Below, piece by piece: positions 58,439 through 64,000 of a DNA stretch of 64,000 nucleotides; position 1 is the first letter of the stretch; every line of letters begins with the position of its first letter. The notes under the pieces are model-generated. The model saw only the letters and a program-made list of their open reading frames with translations, was not told the origin of the DNA and made no database searches. The position numbers were made by a program, and so were the translations under genes. The stretch is from Caldicellulosiruptor saccharolyticus DSM 8903 (GTDB lineage: Bacteria; Bacillota; Thermoanaerobacteria; Caldicellulosiruptorales; Caldicellulosiruptoraceae): the NCBI RefSeq assembly GCF_000016545.1, contig NC_009437.1, forward strand, positions 1,219,501 through 1,283,500, in the 5' to 3' direction.

Positions 58439-59650
58439 TTAATATTCAAACTCAATTCCAAACGGTTTTAGTGCTCTTGGTAGGATTCCATGGACATATG
58501 CAATCATGATACCATAGTTTGTGATTGGCACACCCTGTTTTTTAGCAAGTTCTACTCTAAATAGCATCTCTCTTCGTGTTATCATACAGCCACCACAGTG
58601 GATTATAAGCTTGTACTTTGTGAGATCTTTTGGATAATTGTAGCCTGATACCCATTCAAAGTTTATATCAAATCCAGCAATCTGACGCAGCCACCTTGGA
58701 ATTTTAACAGTTCCAATGTCATCTGATTGCCTGTGGTGTGTGCATGCCTCGGCAATCAAAACTGTATCCCCAGGTTTTAAATCTTTAATTTTCCTGACTC
58801 CCTCAACAAACTCCACCAAATCCCCTTTGTATCTTGCAAACAAAATTGAAAAAGATGTAAGAGGAATATCAGGTGGGGTGTCTGCATCAACCTTTAAAAA
58901 CGCTTGTGAATCTGTTATAACAATTGCAGGTTTTTTACCAAGATTTTCGATAGTTTCTTTTAACTCATATTCCTTTGTCACAATTGCAATTGCATCAGAA
59001 TCCAAAATATCTCTTATTGTCTGCTGCTGAGGCAAAATCAATCTTCCTTTTGGTGCTGCCTTGTCAATCGGCACAACTAAAACTACAAAGTCACCCGGGT
59101 TTATCAAATCTCCTACTATTCGCAAATCCTCACCAATATCTGGCACAAGCTTTGCAAGTGAACTTTTTAGCTCATCAATGCCTTTTAAAGTAACACATGA
59201 CACAGCTAAAAATGGCATTCCCAAGCTTGTTTGCAAAAAAGAAAGTTTTTCTTTATAATTTGGGTCTTTGTCAATCTTATTCAAAACACCAATTCTTGGC
59301 ACTTTTTTTTCGTCAAAAAGTTTTGCAAGCTGCTTTTCATACGTCAAGTCATCTATATCAGATACCACTAATATTGCAATATCAGTTTTGTTCAAAACCT
59401 CCAGTGTCTTTTCAATCCTGAGCTTACCAAGCTCACCCACATCATCAATTCCTGCTGTGTCAATTAAAACAACAGGACCGAGCGGCAAAATCTCCATTGA
59501 TTTGTAAACAGGGTCGGTAGTAGTTCCCGGCATGTCAGACACAATCGCAATTGGCTGGTTTGTTATGGCATTGATTAAACTTGACTTACCTGCGTTTCTC
59601 TTGCCAAATATAGCTATGTGAAGCCTTTCACTGCGCGGTGTTGTGTTCAT
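58439..59650 (-). CDS. hydF: [FeFe]-hydrogenase maturation GTPase HydF
   Basis: 403 residues. It is the scaffold on which HydE and HydG build the diiron subcluster before transfer to the hydrogenase. The N-terminal GTPase domain has the P-loop GKRNAGKSS, DTAGIDD and NKID; a dimerisation domain follows. The C-terminal iron-sulfur domain carries the conserved EACTHHRQ and HCGGCMITRR ligands (one Cys, then C-x2-C, plus His). It starts at ATG 59650. It lies 28 bases downstream of aspA on the same strand and is evidently co-transcribed. HydE and HydG are not in the window. Confidence 0.95.
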   Translation of the reverse strand: MNTTPRSERLHIAIFGKRNAGKSSLINAITNQPIAIVSDMPGTTTDPVYKSMEILPLGPVVLIDTAGIDDVGELGKLRIEKTLEVLNKTDIAILVVSDIDDLTYEKQLAKLFDEKKVPRIGVLNKIDKDPNYKEKLSFLQTSLGMPFLAVSCVTLKGIDELKSSLAKLVPDIGEDLRIVGDLINPGDFVVLVVPIDKAAPKGRLILPQQQTIRDILDSDAIAIVTKEYELKETIENLGKKPAIVITDSQAFLKVDADTPPDIPLTSFSILFARYKGDLVEFVEGVRKIKDLKPGDTVLIAEACTHHRQSDDIGTVKIPRWLRQIAGFDINFEWVSGYNYPKDLTKYKLIIHCGGCMITRREMLFRVELAKKQGVPITNYGIMIAYVHGILPRALKPFGIEFEY

Positions 59651-59678: not shown

Positions 59679-61064
59679 TCATTCTTTAAACTTTATAAAC
59701 TCAAAAGGATTCAAAAGCTCTTGTGCTTCTTTTTCATCCATAATATTTAGCTCTTTAACAACATCTATTATTTGCTTGCTCTCTAAAGTAGCCTTTTTTG
59801 CAATTTCTGCTGCCTTGTCATATCCAATCTTGTCAATTAAGCTTGCTGCAATAGCAGGAGTCTTTTTTGCATACTCTAAACATTTTTCTTTGTTTGCTGT
59901 TATACCATCTATGCACTGCTGCCTGAAAATTTTAATACCATTTTTGAGAATTTTAAGATTCTCAAGAAGATTGTTTGCTATCAGAGGTAAAAAAGCATTC
60001 AGTTCAAGCTGACCAGCCTGCGCTGCTAAAGTTATTGCAAAGTCGTTTGCCATCACCTGAAAAGCTATTGTGTTTACAAGCTCAGGGATTACAGGATTTA
60101 CCTTTCCAGGCATAATGCTTGAGCCAGCCTGAACAGCTGGCAGGTTTATCTCATTAAAGCCTGTGTTTGGTCCAGAGGAAAGAAGACGAAGGTCATTTGC
60201 AATCTTTGAGAGATTCACTGCCAAGGCTTTCAAAAGCCCTGAACATTCAACAAAAACGTCTGCGTTCTGTGTCGCATCCATAAGATAATCTGAACGAGCC
60301 AAGCCGATTTTGGTAAGGTTTCTTAGTATTTCTATCACTTTAAAGATGTATTTCAAAGGTGCGTTTACTCCTGTGCCAACAGCAGTTGCACCAAGATTGA
60401 CAACCCTGAGCCGCTCTTCAACCTTGTATAGTCTCCATCTGTCGCGTGAGATAGCTTGGGCATATGCACCAAACTCCTGACCAAGTGTTACAGGCAGGGC
60501 ATCTTGCAGCTGTGTTCTTCCTGCCTTTATTACATCCTCAAATTCATGTTCTTTTTTCTGAAGACTTTTTTGAAGCTCTGCACATTCTTCTGAAAGTTCT
60601 CTTACATTCCATATAGTGGCAATTCGCAAGGCTGTAGGGTACACATCGTTTGTTGACTGTGATAGATTAACATGATTAATTGGATGAATTATATCATACT
60701 CACCCGGTTTTCTTCCAATGTGAATTAAGGCTACGTTTGCAATAACTTCGTTTACATTCATATTTGTAGATGTTCCCGCACCGCCCTGGAAGCTGTCTAC
60801 AATGAACTGGTCGTCATATTTTCCTGCCAGAATTTCGTCACATGCAAAGACAATAGCATCTTTAATTTTTTCATCCAAAAGACCAACTTCATAGTTTGCA
60901 ATTGCGCACGCTTTTTTGACCATGACAAGCGCTTTTATTAAATCTTTGTCAACGCTCTTTCCAGAGACGTTAAAATTAGCAAAAGCGCGTTTTGTGTGAA
61001 TTCCATAAAGCTCAGAATCAGAAAGCTCAATACTGCCCAAGAAATCTTTTTCTATTCTTGACAT
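59679..61064 (-). CDS. aspA: Aspartate ammonia-lyase
   Basis: 461 residues of the fumarase/aspartase superfamily, converting L-aspartate reversibly to fumarate and ammonia. Signature GSSIMPGKVNP near residue 315, plus GGAGTSTNMNVNEV, NHVNLSQSTND and GRTQLQDALPVTLGQE. The AGGAGAG ribosome-binding site is good. Genes for this enzyme are found next to hydrogenase maturation genes in several anaerobic Firmicutes and Thermotogae, and here it leads hydF, so the pairing is a conserved context and not chance. A metabolic reason (possibly ammonium for HydF-dependent assembly) is speculative. Confidence 0.95.
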   Translation of the reverse strand: MSRIEKDFLGSIELSDSELYGIHTKRAFANFNVSGKSVDKDLIKALVMVKKACAIANYEVGLLDEKIKDAIVFACDEILAGKYDDQFIVDSFQGGAGTSTNMNVNEVIANVALIHIGRKPGEYDIIHPINHVNLSQSTNDVYPTALRIATIWNVRELSEECAELQKSLQKKEHEFEDVIKAGRTQLQDALPVTLGQEFGAYAQAISRDRWRLYKVEERLRVVNLGATAVGTGVNAPLKYIFKVIEILRNLTKIGLARSDYLMDATQNADVFVECSGLLKALAVNLSKIANDLRLLSSGPNTGFNEINLPAVQAGSSIMPGKVNPVIPELVNTIAFQVMANDFAITLAAQAGQLELNAFLPLIANNLLENLKILKNGIKIFRQQCIDGITANKEKCLEYAKKTPAIAASLIDKIGYDKAAEIAKKATLESKQIIDVVKELNIMDEKEAQELLNPFEFIKFKE

Positions 61065-61610
61065 TGCTGTATATCTCTCCTGATTAAATGTATTTTAAAG
61101 TTGTCCGATATTAATCAACATCAAATATTATATCATATCGATGAGAATTCAGGTGAAAAAGACGCAATTTTAAAAGCACTTTCTTTAATTGCGGAATTTT
61201 AAAGCTTTGCGAGAGGTTTTTATGTCCAATAAAGATAACTTTGAATCAGTTCACAACAGTCATTTCATGTGATTTTTCCCTTTGGATTTATGTTTGTTTT
61301 TTAAGTGTGTAATTGGAGTGCAAAAAATATTAATTGGTTTAATTTAAAAACAGAAAACAATCCAAGGTAAATTTTTATCTTTGGCAAGACAAAATAATGC
61401 AAGATTGAGTACAAAATATTGAAAAAAAAAACAATATTGTGAATTGAAATTTAAAACAAAAGCTATATATTACAATTAAAATCTCTTGCCTGAAAGTAAA
61501 ATTAAAAAAGGAGAAAGAATTTGAGGTTGGGAAGATTGATTTGAGAAGGATAATGGTTTGAATTAATTTATCAGTATTTAGATTTACTTCTTTATTTTGG
61601 AGGTATTCTT
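61065..61610. other. Intergenic region before the radical SAM genes
   Basis: 546 AT-rich bases with no convincing gene. Between 61139 and 61203 a short open stretch ends DENSGEKDAILKALSLIAEF, which resembles the end of some protein. An AAAGGAG site at about 61507 precedes a tiny frame from TTG 61521. A TTTGGAGG ribosome-binding site for the next gene is at about 61595. Confidence 0.4.
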
Positions 61611-62585
61611 ATGAAAGTGATATGGAATTTGACGAGACTGTGCAACTGGAATTGTGTGATTTGTTGTGTCGATGCTGTTCATGTAAGTAACAAACAAATA
61701 CCAGAGATTCAAAAAAGATTGATTTTAAATGGGAAGGAATTAACATTCGAAGAAAAAGTGAAAATAGTTAACGATTTATATAATAGTGGTATAAACTCAA
61801 TTGATTTTTCAGGTGGAAATCTGCTTTTAATAAATGATAATATTAAATTACTTCAATATGCTGCTTCTAAATTTTCAAAAGATTGCTTATCTATAAGTAT
61901 ACCAGGGAATAATTTAAATTTTGAATTAATCTGCAATTTAAAGGATTATGTATCTAAAGTTGAATTTACGTTAGATAATGTAGAAGGTGACAAGGATGGT
62001 TCAAGACCAAATGGATTTGTTGAGTTGGCAAAGAATGCAATAAAATTGTGTGTAAAAGAAAATATCACTGTATGCGTTAGTACAGTGCTTAAAAAAAGTA
62101 ATGTTTCACCTAAGAACTTGAGTAAAATTTATTACTTTTTAATTGAAAATGGTGTAGAAGAATGGGAAATATTGCGCTTTTACCAGGTAGGAAGAGCAGC
62201 GAATATTTATGCTCTAAATCCTGATGATAGTGAACTTAAAGAGGCAATTAAGTACATAGATGAACTCAAAAAGGAAAATATTATACAAATTTCATATCAG
62301 CATTCTTTAAAAAACAAAATTCACGGAAATGTTAAGTGTAATGCTTTAAGTCATTCAATAGGTATATTTGCTGATGGAACAGTTAGTGCATGTGCTTGGG
62401 CACTTGGATATAATGGTAGGCCAATTGATGAAAATTTTGTATTGGGAAAGATGCCAGAACAAAGCTTGAAAGATATTATTGAGAGTGATAAAGCATTAAA
62501 ATGGAATAGTAATGAGCTAAAAAATTCTGCTTCAATATGTCAGCCTGATAAAATTATGCTGAATAATCTGTATTTCACTAAATAG
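61611..62585 (+). CDS. Radical SAM protein with additional C-terminal cysteines
   Basis: 324 residues. Radical SAM iron-sulfur motif CNWNCVIC at Cys11/Cys15/Cys18, at the very N-terminus after the first strand, followed by the SGGNLLL glycine-rich SAM-binding segment. The rest forms a partial TIM barrel. Near the C-terminus KCNALSHSIGIFADGTVSACAWALG and a later Cys (SASICQPD) resemble a SPASM/twitch auxiliary-cluster domain, as in peptide- or carbohydrate-modifying enzymes. The substrate is not identifiable. The ribosome-binding site TTTGGAGG is strong. The next radical SAM gene starts 22 bases later, so the two are one operon. Confidence 0.85.
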   Translation: MKVIWNLTRLCNWNCVICCVDAVHVSNKQIPEIQKRLILNGKELTFEEKVKIVNDLYNSGINSIDFSGGNLLLINDNIKLLQYAASKFSKDCLSISIPGNNLNFELICNLKDYVSKVEFTLDNVEGDKDGSRPNGFVELAKNAIKLCVKENITVCVSTVLKKSNVSPKNLSKIYYFLIENGVEEWEILRFYQVGRAANIYALNPDDSELKEAIKYIDELKKENIIQISYQHSLKNKIHGNVKCNALSHSIGIFADGTVSACAWALGYNGRPIDENFVLGKMPEQSLKDIIESDKALKWNSNELKNSASICQPDKIMLNNLYFTK

Positions 62586-62606
62586 GAAAAGGTGTACGAG
62601 GATAAA

Positions 62607-63416
62607 ATGCAAGCTATAAGATGTAAAACAATTCTTACTAAAAGTAAGTTACCAAGTGTTGATTACTGCTATAATGTTTATATTGGATGTACCCATGCAT
62701 GCCAATACTGTTACGCAGAATTTATGAAAAAATTTACAGGACATATTAATGATGAATGGGGTCAATTTGTTGACTACAAAGAAAATGCTTTAGAGATACT
62801 TGAAAAAGAAATTAAAAAGGTTAAAAAGAACGAAAAAGTATTATTGGGAAGTGTTACCGATTCCTACCAACCGATAGAAAAGAAACTTCTTTTGACAAGG
62901 AAAAGTCTCGAATTATTTTTAAAGAATAAAACACATATTTCTATTTTAACCAAGTCAGCTTTGGTTTTAAGAGATATTGACATACTATCAGGTTACGATA
63001 AGTGTGAAGTAGGTATAAGCTGTGGTTTTTTAGATAAGAATGTTTATCAAATTTTGGAACCACGTGCTAGCAATCCTTACGAAAGAATAATGGTCCTCAG
63101 AGAATTGAAACGTGCAGGAATAAGAACATACTTATTCATAAGTCCAATAATTCCTTTTATCAGTGATATAGAATCTATTTTTTCTTTAGCAGGGGACAGT
63201 ATTGATTTTGCAATGGGTGAAATATTAAATACAAAGCGTAACAATATTAAGAAATTAAGAAGTATATTAGAAAAATTGGTTGGATACAATAAAGTTTCAG
63301 AAATATTAAATCTTTGTAAAGATAATGAATATCTATCGACAATTCAAGATAAATTTGAAGCCTTATGTAGAGCTTATAGAGTCGAAAATAAAGGGTTTTT
63401 TGCTCATAAGAATTAA
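62607..63416 (+). CDS. SPL-family (spore photoproduct lyase-like) radical SAM protein
   Basis: 269 residues from ATG 62607 (GAGG before it). A GTG at 62592 is in frame but is too close to a ribosome-binding site to be likely. The motif GCTHACQYCYAEFM (Cys28/Cys32/Cys35) and downstream LLGSVTDSYQPIEKKLLLTRK and ISILTKSALVLRD match the SPL-like/Rv2578c group of radical SAM proteins, whose role is mostly unknown. There is no sign of the DNA-binding hairpin of true spore photoproduct lyase. The adjacency to another radical SAM gene and a transporter-like gene suggests a small biosynthetic operon. Confidence 0.85.
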   Translation: MQAIRCKTILTKSKLPSVDYCYNVYIGCTHACQYCYAEFMKKFTGHINDEWGQFVDYKENALEILEKEIKKVKKNEKVLLGSVTDSYQPIEKKLLLTRKSLELFLKNKTHISILTKSALVLRDIDILSGYDKCEVGISCGFLDKNVYQILEPRASNPYERIMVLRELKRAGIRTYLFISPIIPFISDIESIFSLAGDSIDFAMGEILNTKRNNIKKLRSILEKLVGYNKVSEILNLCKDNEYLSTIQDKFEALCRAYRVENKGFFAHKN

Positions 63417-63454
63417 GCAATATGAAAACATTATAGTATATAAGAGGCGAAAAG

Positions 63455-64000
63455 ATGGTAAAAGATTGTTTATTCTTTCTGGTAAAGTTTAGTTCATATA
63501 TGCCAATGGTATTATTACCGTTATTTATATATAAAGAGTTTAATAACGTGTTTTTAATTGGTATTTCGTTAGCAGTGTGGAGGATCTTGTCATATTACAA
63601 ATATAACGTTATTCATAAAACATTGCAGAAGTATATTGTTAGAGCAAGTTTGATATTGATTTTAATAGTAGACTTGTTATATCCTGTAAATCCAAAATAT
63701 AATATATTATTTTTAATCTTTATTTCTTCTTTATTGTCTTCGTATCTGAGAGTAGAGCCTGCCTGTTTAAGAGAGAGTGCGTTAACTAATTTTATATTCA
63801 TAGTGAGTGGAATGATATTTGCTGGTTTAATTATGTATAATTTGCGCTTTCTAAGTTTTTACTTCAACATTTTTAATATTGCATTATTGTTAGTTTGTAG
63901 AATTTCTCCATTTGAAAAAATAAAGAGATGTTCATTTAAAGTATTTAAGTATGATTTAATAACTGTATTTCTTCATAATTTCATTTACTATTTTTTTATT
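63455..64000 (+). CDS. Polytopic membrane protein, 5' part (runs off the window)
   Basis: An open frame of 182 codons from ATG 63455, without a stop at the window edge. It shows at least five hydrophobic segments in the first 180 residues (MPMVLLPLFIY, FLIGISLAVW, ASLILILIVDLL, ILFLIFISSLLSS, FIFIVSGMIFAGLI). It resembles the first half of an MFS-type permease, with no clear motif. It starts 38 bases after the second radical SAM gene, so it is probably the operon's transporter. The ribosome-binding site is weak (AAGAGGCGAAA). Confidence 0.65.
   Translation, partial: MVKDCLFFLVKFSSYMPMVLLPLFIYKEFNNVFLIGISLAVWRILSYYKYNVIHKTLQKYIVRASLILILIVDLLYPVNPKYNILFLIFISSLLSSYLRVEPACLRESALTNFIFIVSGMIFAGLIMYNLRFLSFYFNIFNIALLLVCRISPFEKIKRCSFKVFKYDLITVFLHNFIYYFFI

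Follow-up and report, generated by a model that had tools for sequence, protein, structure and literature searches.

A Recently Exchanged Seven-Gene Cassette with Two Radical SAM Enzymes and an ABC-2 Exporter in Caldicellulosiruptor saccharolyticus: Possible Modification and Export of a Small Molecule

The analyzed window of 64,000 bp (bases 1219501–1283500 of the complete 2,970,275-bp chromosome of C. saccharolyticus DSM 8903) ends within a cassette of seven co-directional genes, about 7.1 kb long. The cassette is foreign in composition, and there is good evidence for its recent horizontal exchange between two species of the genus. Its parts are individually of familiar kinds; their combination turned up nowhere else in the collections searched. 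Our tentative reading, which we hold at somewhat less than even confidence, is that the cassette was horizontally acquired and serves the radical modification of a small molecule, self-protection, and export.

Organization of the Locus

The DNA downstream of the window is numbered as locus L003 (window position = L003 position + 58999). The following features were recognized:

61239–61509 (L003:2240–2510), + strand: leader of a genus-native papain-like cysteine peptidase gene, found in the genus both here and at further loci
61591–61610, + strand: left edge of the part common with the second species (~99%), just 5' of the ribosome-binding site of gene 1
61599–61604, + strand: ribosome-binding site of gene 1 (ggaggt)
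61611–62585, + strand: gene 1, Twitch-type radical SAM protein, 324 aa (ORF, Pfam, NCBIfam, motif)
62592–63416, + strand: gene 2, radical SAM protein of the pair B/PA0069/Rv2578c neighborhood, 274 aa (ORF, Pfam, NCBIfam, motif)
63455–64480 (end = L003:5481, past the window end), + strand: gene 3, MFS-like multi-pass membrane protein, 341 aa (ORF, hydropathy, weak MFS match)
L003:5490–6476, + strand: gene 4, ABC ATPase (ABC_tran, DrrA match)
L003:6478–7326, + strand: gene 5, ABC2_membrane_6 permease (Pfam)
L003:7334–8119, + strand: gene 6, ABC2_membrane_6 permease (Pfam)
L003:8279–9505, + strand: gene 7, nucleotidyltransferase-like protein, 408 aa, TTG start behind GGAGG (GS-x11-DxD motif)
L003:10312–11640: IS110 element beside the cassette, 3' of gene 7, in the window's genome

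A preliminary description of the window had placed two radical SAM genes and a membrane protein gene close together in AT-rich DNA and expected the operon to continue past the window. The close spacing was confirmed: gene 1 and gene 2 are 6 bp apart, gene 2 and gene 3 are 38 bp apart, and the gaps throughout genes 1–6 are 1–38 bp. The operon does continue: downstream of MFS-like gene 3 come the gene for an ABC-2 ATPase, those for two ABC2_membrane_6 permeases, and, after a gap of 159 bp without a terminator-like site, a divergent nucleotidyltransferase-like gene. The AT-richness is also real, since the G+C content of the cassette (27.6%) lies below the minimum of 30.1% among 108 equal-size windows of the preceding 61 kb. 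Rfam gave no match.

The cassette begins just behind the leader of the papain-like peptidase gene. This noncoding leader of about 270 bp recurs elsewhere in genomes of the genus with 71–82% identity and has no Rfam match; the one copy inspected lies upstream of a paralogous peptidase gene (L086). The leader contains a promoter-like sequence, TTGAAA-16-TATATT (61444–61471), in a scan whose yield did not exceed chance (52 sites found, 54.5 expected). As the leader lies a little upstream of the shared part, a host promoter may drive expression of the cassette.

Several other features of the region were recorded. The papain-like cysteine peptidase (QAYSNWCWAA motif) and a membrane-anchored protein of 328–331 aa form a pair (L003:12039–13703), kept at this site across most of the genus and duplicated in the same genome (L086:5247–6867); the copy beside the cassette appears frame-shifted. 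HydF (58439–59650) adjoins a gene of the aspartate ammonia-lyase/fumarase family (59679–61064), both named by eye from the sequence; this is a known kind of pair, ammonia-lyases having been linked to [FeFe]-hydrogenase maturation (PMC11736057). Several IS110 copies of the genome are split in two, with the pieces overlapping by ~8 bp and ~1.3 kb between them (G000:C1:353240–355885 and 1649512–1652157), suggesting that another insertion sequence landed in IS110.

Distribution, Recent Transfer, and Decay

Among twelve species of the genus examined, one genome each, two carried the cassette, and both had it at one and the same site. The ten other species had no cassette there, and most of them join sequence matching L003 ~2510 directly to sequence matching ~12161. 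Between the two carriers, identity was 97% in the cassette, 91% in the left flank, and 88% in the right flank. Synonymous divergence (dS) was 0.011–0.087 across the seven genes versus 0.46, 0.30, and 1.9 for three flanking genes, which indicates recent movement of the cassette. The start region of the ammonia-lyase gene occurs once more 3' of the cassette (L003:11748–12160), in a diverged form that resembles another species' version (L085), as if the cassette had entered by a single crossover at the site. No matching cassette was found in another genus in the collections searched, whose low-identity range was covered non-exhaustively. A phage origin was considered and rejected: scans of viral contigs gave no relatives, and the phage matches of gene 2 were at most 37% identical.

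The copy of the second species is decaying: its gene 1 is interrupted by stop codons at positions 34 and 105, genes 3 and 4 are split apart by an insertion sequence, and a one-base insertion affects gene 7. This damage, the IS110 element adjoining the cassette in the window's genome, and the absence of any enzyme building a scaffold would also fit a decaying fragment of a larger cluster, non-functional even in C. saccharolyticus. We find this doubtful, because the window's genome has an intact version of each of the seven genes and dN/dS was 0.20–0.47 for six of them. With only two related copies, the second of them damaged, conservation cannot serve as a test of gene content.

Radical SAM Enzymes

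Gene 1 matched Pfam Radical_SAM (PF04055; 1.8e-10, 41.7 bits against a gathering cut-off of 29.5) and, in its C-terminal part, SPASM (PF13186; 1.9e-7, 31.7 bits against 21.5). The core begins at residue 2–6 in the profile matches, and its motif CNWNCVIC occupies residues 11–18. The C-terminal part contains only C243-x12-G-x4-C261 and C310, probable ligands of an auxiliary cluster; the full seven-cysteine, two-cluster SPASM motif is not present, CX2CX5CX3C being absent. By these cysteines, gene 1 looks closer to the one-cluster Twitch domain, as distinguished from SPASM in PMC6231123, than to full SPASM. Its earlier naming as SPASM-like thus holds for the Pfam matches and probably has to be narrowed to the Twitch type.

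The CxxxCxxC core, the C-terminal C-x9-15-G-x4-C, and one more cysteine are shared with the Twitch enzymes BtrN, MoaA, and SkfB and are consistent with a single auxiliary cluster; gene 1 differs from these enzymes in belonging to no named family. It scored far under every named NCBIfam cut-off, the best match being TIGR04053 (61 bits vs. 395). A match to viperin (PADLOC 3.3e-9, NCBIfam 3.2e-6) was rejected, as it reached 26.5 bits against a cut-off of 180 and gene 1 has a C-terminal Twitch/SPASM domain. Pattern-based scanning of IMG/VR and of 84,980 species genomes revealed no relatives of gene 1, a rarity that holds for close relatives only, since single-protein pattern scans detect no others. 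At E 1e-20, none was found in the 398 phylum genomes besides its own; among plasmids, two matches with ~25% identity were obtained.

Gene 2 also belongs to the radical SAM superfamily (PF04055; 4.6e-14, 53.4 bits vs. 29.5) and has the cluster motif CTHACQYC at residues 33–40. Its likelier start is the ATG at 62607, which has its own GAGG and gives a protein of 269 aa. The preliminary description had assigned gene 2 to the spore photoproduct lyase (SPL) family. This assignment was abandoned: the two share a distant similarity of the radical SAM core, but gene 2 falls under the cut-offs of both SPL profiles (TIGR04070: 6.3e-5, 22.1 bits vs. 400; PF20903: 0.01, 15.2 bits vs. 27) and is therefore no true SPL. 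Its nearest NCBIfam family is mobile pair B (TIGR04470; 1.2e-51), with 175.7 bits against a curated cut-off of 410; the scores for PA0069 and Rv2578c were 157.8 and 106.5 bits, each likewise under its cut-off.

Like the radical SAM mobile pair (TIGR04471 and TIGR04470), for which a genuine pair A/B locus in Lachnospira eligens was used as the comparison, the cassette has two adjacent radical SAM genes on mobile DNA. It differs in that gene 1 encodes a Twitch-type protein of 324 aa instead of a pair A protein of ~220 aa, in the absence of a MarR regulator, and in the added transport genes. The families that gene 1 matched do not include pair A (TIGR04471).

Relatives of gene 2 at E 1e-20 were present in 97 of the 398 phylum genomes. 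Beside 20 of the nearest ones, no cassette genes other than generic ABC ATPases were found, and 19 of the 20 had no second radical SAM motif within two ORFs on either side; the remaining one had an unrelated pair A-like motif. The supposition that such radical SAM pairs have a usual context, modification and export, was thus not upheld. Occurrence of the two genes apart in most genomes, which the preliminary description would have counted against a joint operon, was observed for gene 2 as a family, judged by these relatives, and leaves the cassette as a unit unrefuted.

Evidence Against a Peptide Product

The same description had suggested the modification and export of a peptide or small molecule by an uncharacterised operon, adding that no precursor peptide could be recognised upstream. 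The uncharacterised operon with export functions is supported, a complete ABC-2 exporter lying directly after the MFS-like gene; the peptide is not. Scanning both strands for short reading frames preceded by a ribosome-binding site yielded nothing convincing, only an upstream ORF of 16 residues and short ORFs associated with insertion sequences, in agreement with the precursor's reported absence. Neither feature expected of sactipeptide and ranthipeptide systems, a precursor near the maturase and an N-terminal RRE on the maturase, was found; gene 1 begins directly in the radical SAM core, leaving no room for an RRE or another peptide-binding domain. The lack of a precursor and the Twitch-type gene 1 without such a domain together disfavor a peptide product. 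The RiPP reading was accordingly set aside.

In a RiPP system, gene 1 or gene 2 would modify a short peptide whose gene either lies elsewhere in the genome or has been lost from the left edge of the cassette, and the ABC-2 transporter would export it. This is consistent with the Twitch-type sactisynthase SkfB being the sole PDB entry that gene 1 matched by sequence (6.8e-4), with the nif11-class, SkfB, and AlbA maturases among its NCBIfam matches, and with the left edge, which lies directly at the ribosome-binding site of gene 1, so that upstream genes may have been lost. The maturase matches, however, were all far under their cut-offs (e.g., 40 bits vs. 725), and the cassette contains no peptidase in addition to lacking a precursor ORF and an RRE-sized N-terminal domain in gene 1. 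We regard a RiPP system as improbable. In the part of a published RiPP survey of 211 anaerobes available to us, C. saccharolyticus was represented only by the circular-peptide loci Csac_0523 and Csac_2575, with no cluster of the present kind (PMC4289311).

Transport and Nucleotidyltransferase-Like Genes

Gene 3 was correctly described as a multi-pass membrane protein: it has seven hydropathy peaks, and its match to MFS is weak (0.0074). A radical SAM–MFS gene pair of Agathobacter rectalis was examined as a possible instance of the same system and rejected, because its radical SAM protein is 25% identical and the MFS proteins do not align.

Genes 4–6 encode a complete ABC-2 exporter within one operon. 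The ATPase was most similar to DrrA (2.9e-65; ABC_tran 92.8 bits vs. 25), and both permeases belong to ABC2_membrane_6 (PF06182; 7e-17 and 7.4e-47, 62.4 and 160.5 bits vs. 22). Other ABC-2 exporter trios with ABC2_membrane_6 likewise combine an ATPase and two permeases in one operon; the cassette permeases are only ~22–31% identical to those of the relative loci. Permease matches occurred in 54 of 338 phylum genomes. In all 20 relative loci of the first permease examined, the ABC trio was kept, and recognizable relatives of the radical SAM, MFS, or nucleotidyltransferase genes of the cassette were absent. The trio was probably recruited into the cassette. No known pathway emerged from conserved neighbors of either the 20 gene 2 relatives or these 20 permease loci, their common content being limited to unrelated ABC ATPases and the ABC trio.

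Gene 7 carries the nucleotidyltransferase motif G-S-x11-D-x-D. Its matches were weak, to Polbeta (0.0019, 18.8 bits vs. 26.9), MntA (0.0045), and ANT(9) (0.022, 14 bits vs. 340), so that it lies below the cut-offs for an aminoglycoside-type nucleotidyltransferase (ANT(9), Polbeta). Close relatives of gene 7 were not found in any collection searched. Structure predictions from the single sequences, run with no alignment, gave unusable models for gene 1 and gene 7 (mean pLDDT of 36 and 40, respectively); these failures and the existence of only two copies keep functional certainty low.

Proposed Function

We tentatively propose that the radical SAM enzymes encoded by genes 1 and 2 act in turn on one small, non-peptide metabolite, candidates being a sugar, an aminocyclitol, a nucleotide, or an amino-acid derivative. 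The DrrA-like ABC-2 exporter (genes 4–6) and MFS-like gene 3 would carry the modified molecule outward, and gene 7 would serve to activate an intermediate or else to inactivate the product intracellularly, like aminoglycoside adenylyltransferases. The sequences themselves show which genes are present and in what order, their motifs, the foreign composition, the recent exchange, and the decay of one copy; a common substrate for the two radical SAM enzymes, its small non-peptide nature, outward transport, and the role of gene 7 are inferred. The tight spacing of genes 1–6 within seven co-directional genes and the DrrA-like ATPase with its two permeases argue for this small-molecule function, as does the cysteine pattern of gene 1, which fits the Twitch domain of the small-molecule enzymes BtrN and MoaA (PMC9012708), and equally that of SkfB. 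Gene 1 without an RRE extension, an upstream region with only the 16-residue ORF, and the motif and weak matches of gene 7 point the same way; the low dS relative to the flanks and the ten species without the cassette at the site agree with its acquisition. Against it stand the weak nucleotidyltransferase and MFS assignments, the failed structure predictions, and the lack of a scaffold-building enzyme, which leaves host metabolism or another locus as the source of any substrate.

The same gene content might instead form a resistance island, in which the two pumps (ABC-2 and MFS) and the nucleotidyltransferase protect against a foreign antibiotic and one or both radical SAM enzymes, like Cfr, modify a target of the host, for instance rRNA or tRNA, with no synthesis. 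Three kinds of gene other than the radical SAM genes look like genes for the efflux or inactivation of drugs, a scaffold enzyme is missing, the cassette moves between species, and pair B relatives are also found on plasmids. Among the matches listed, however, neither radical SAM protein matched Cfr/RlmN or an RNA-modifying family, and Twitch domains such as that of gene 1 are known to occur in enzymes acting on small molecules and on peptides (PMC6231123, PMC9012708). A resistance island is unlikely but keeps an appreciable chance.

Going further than small-molecule modification, the locus could represent a mobile biosynthetic cassette of a kind not described before: a Twitch-type and a pair B-type enzyme would share one small molecule as their substrate, self-protection would work by adenylylation, export would be dual, and the outcome would be a new bioactive compound in extreme thermophiles; we offer this as a speculation with a rather small chance of being right. 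If the cassette does make a molecule, it would assign a function to one member of the pair B/PA0069 group of radical SAM proteins, a group that is uncharacterised although common, with relatives in roughly one in four of the sampled genomes of the phylum; it would also add a thermostable route to a new natural product. Since closely related species either have the cassette or lack it cleanly, comparative metabolomics would be a simple test.
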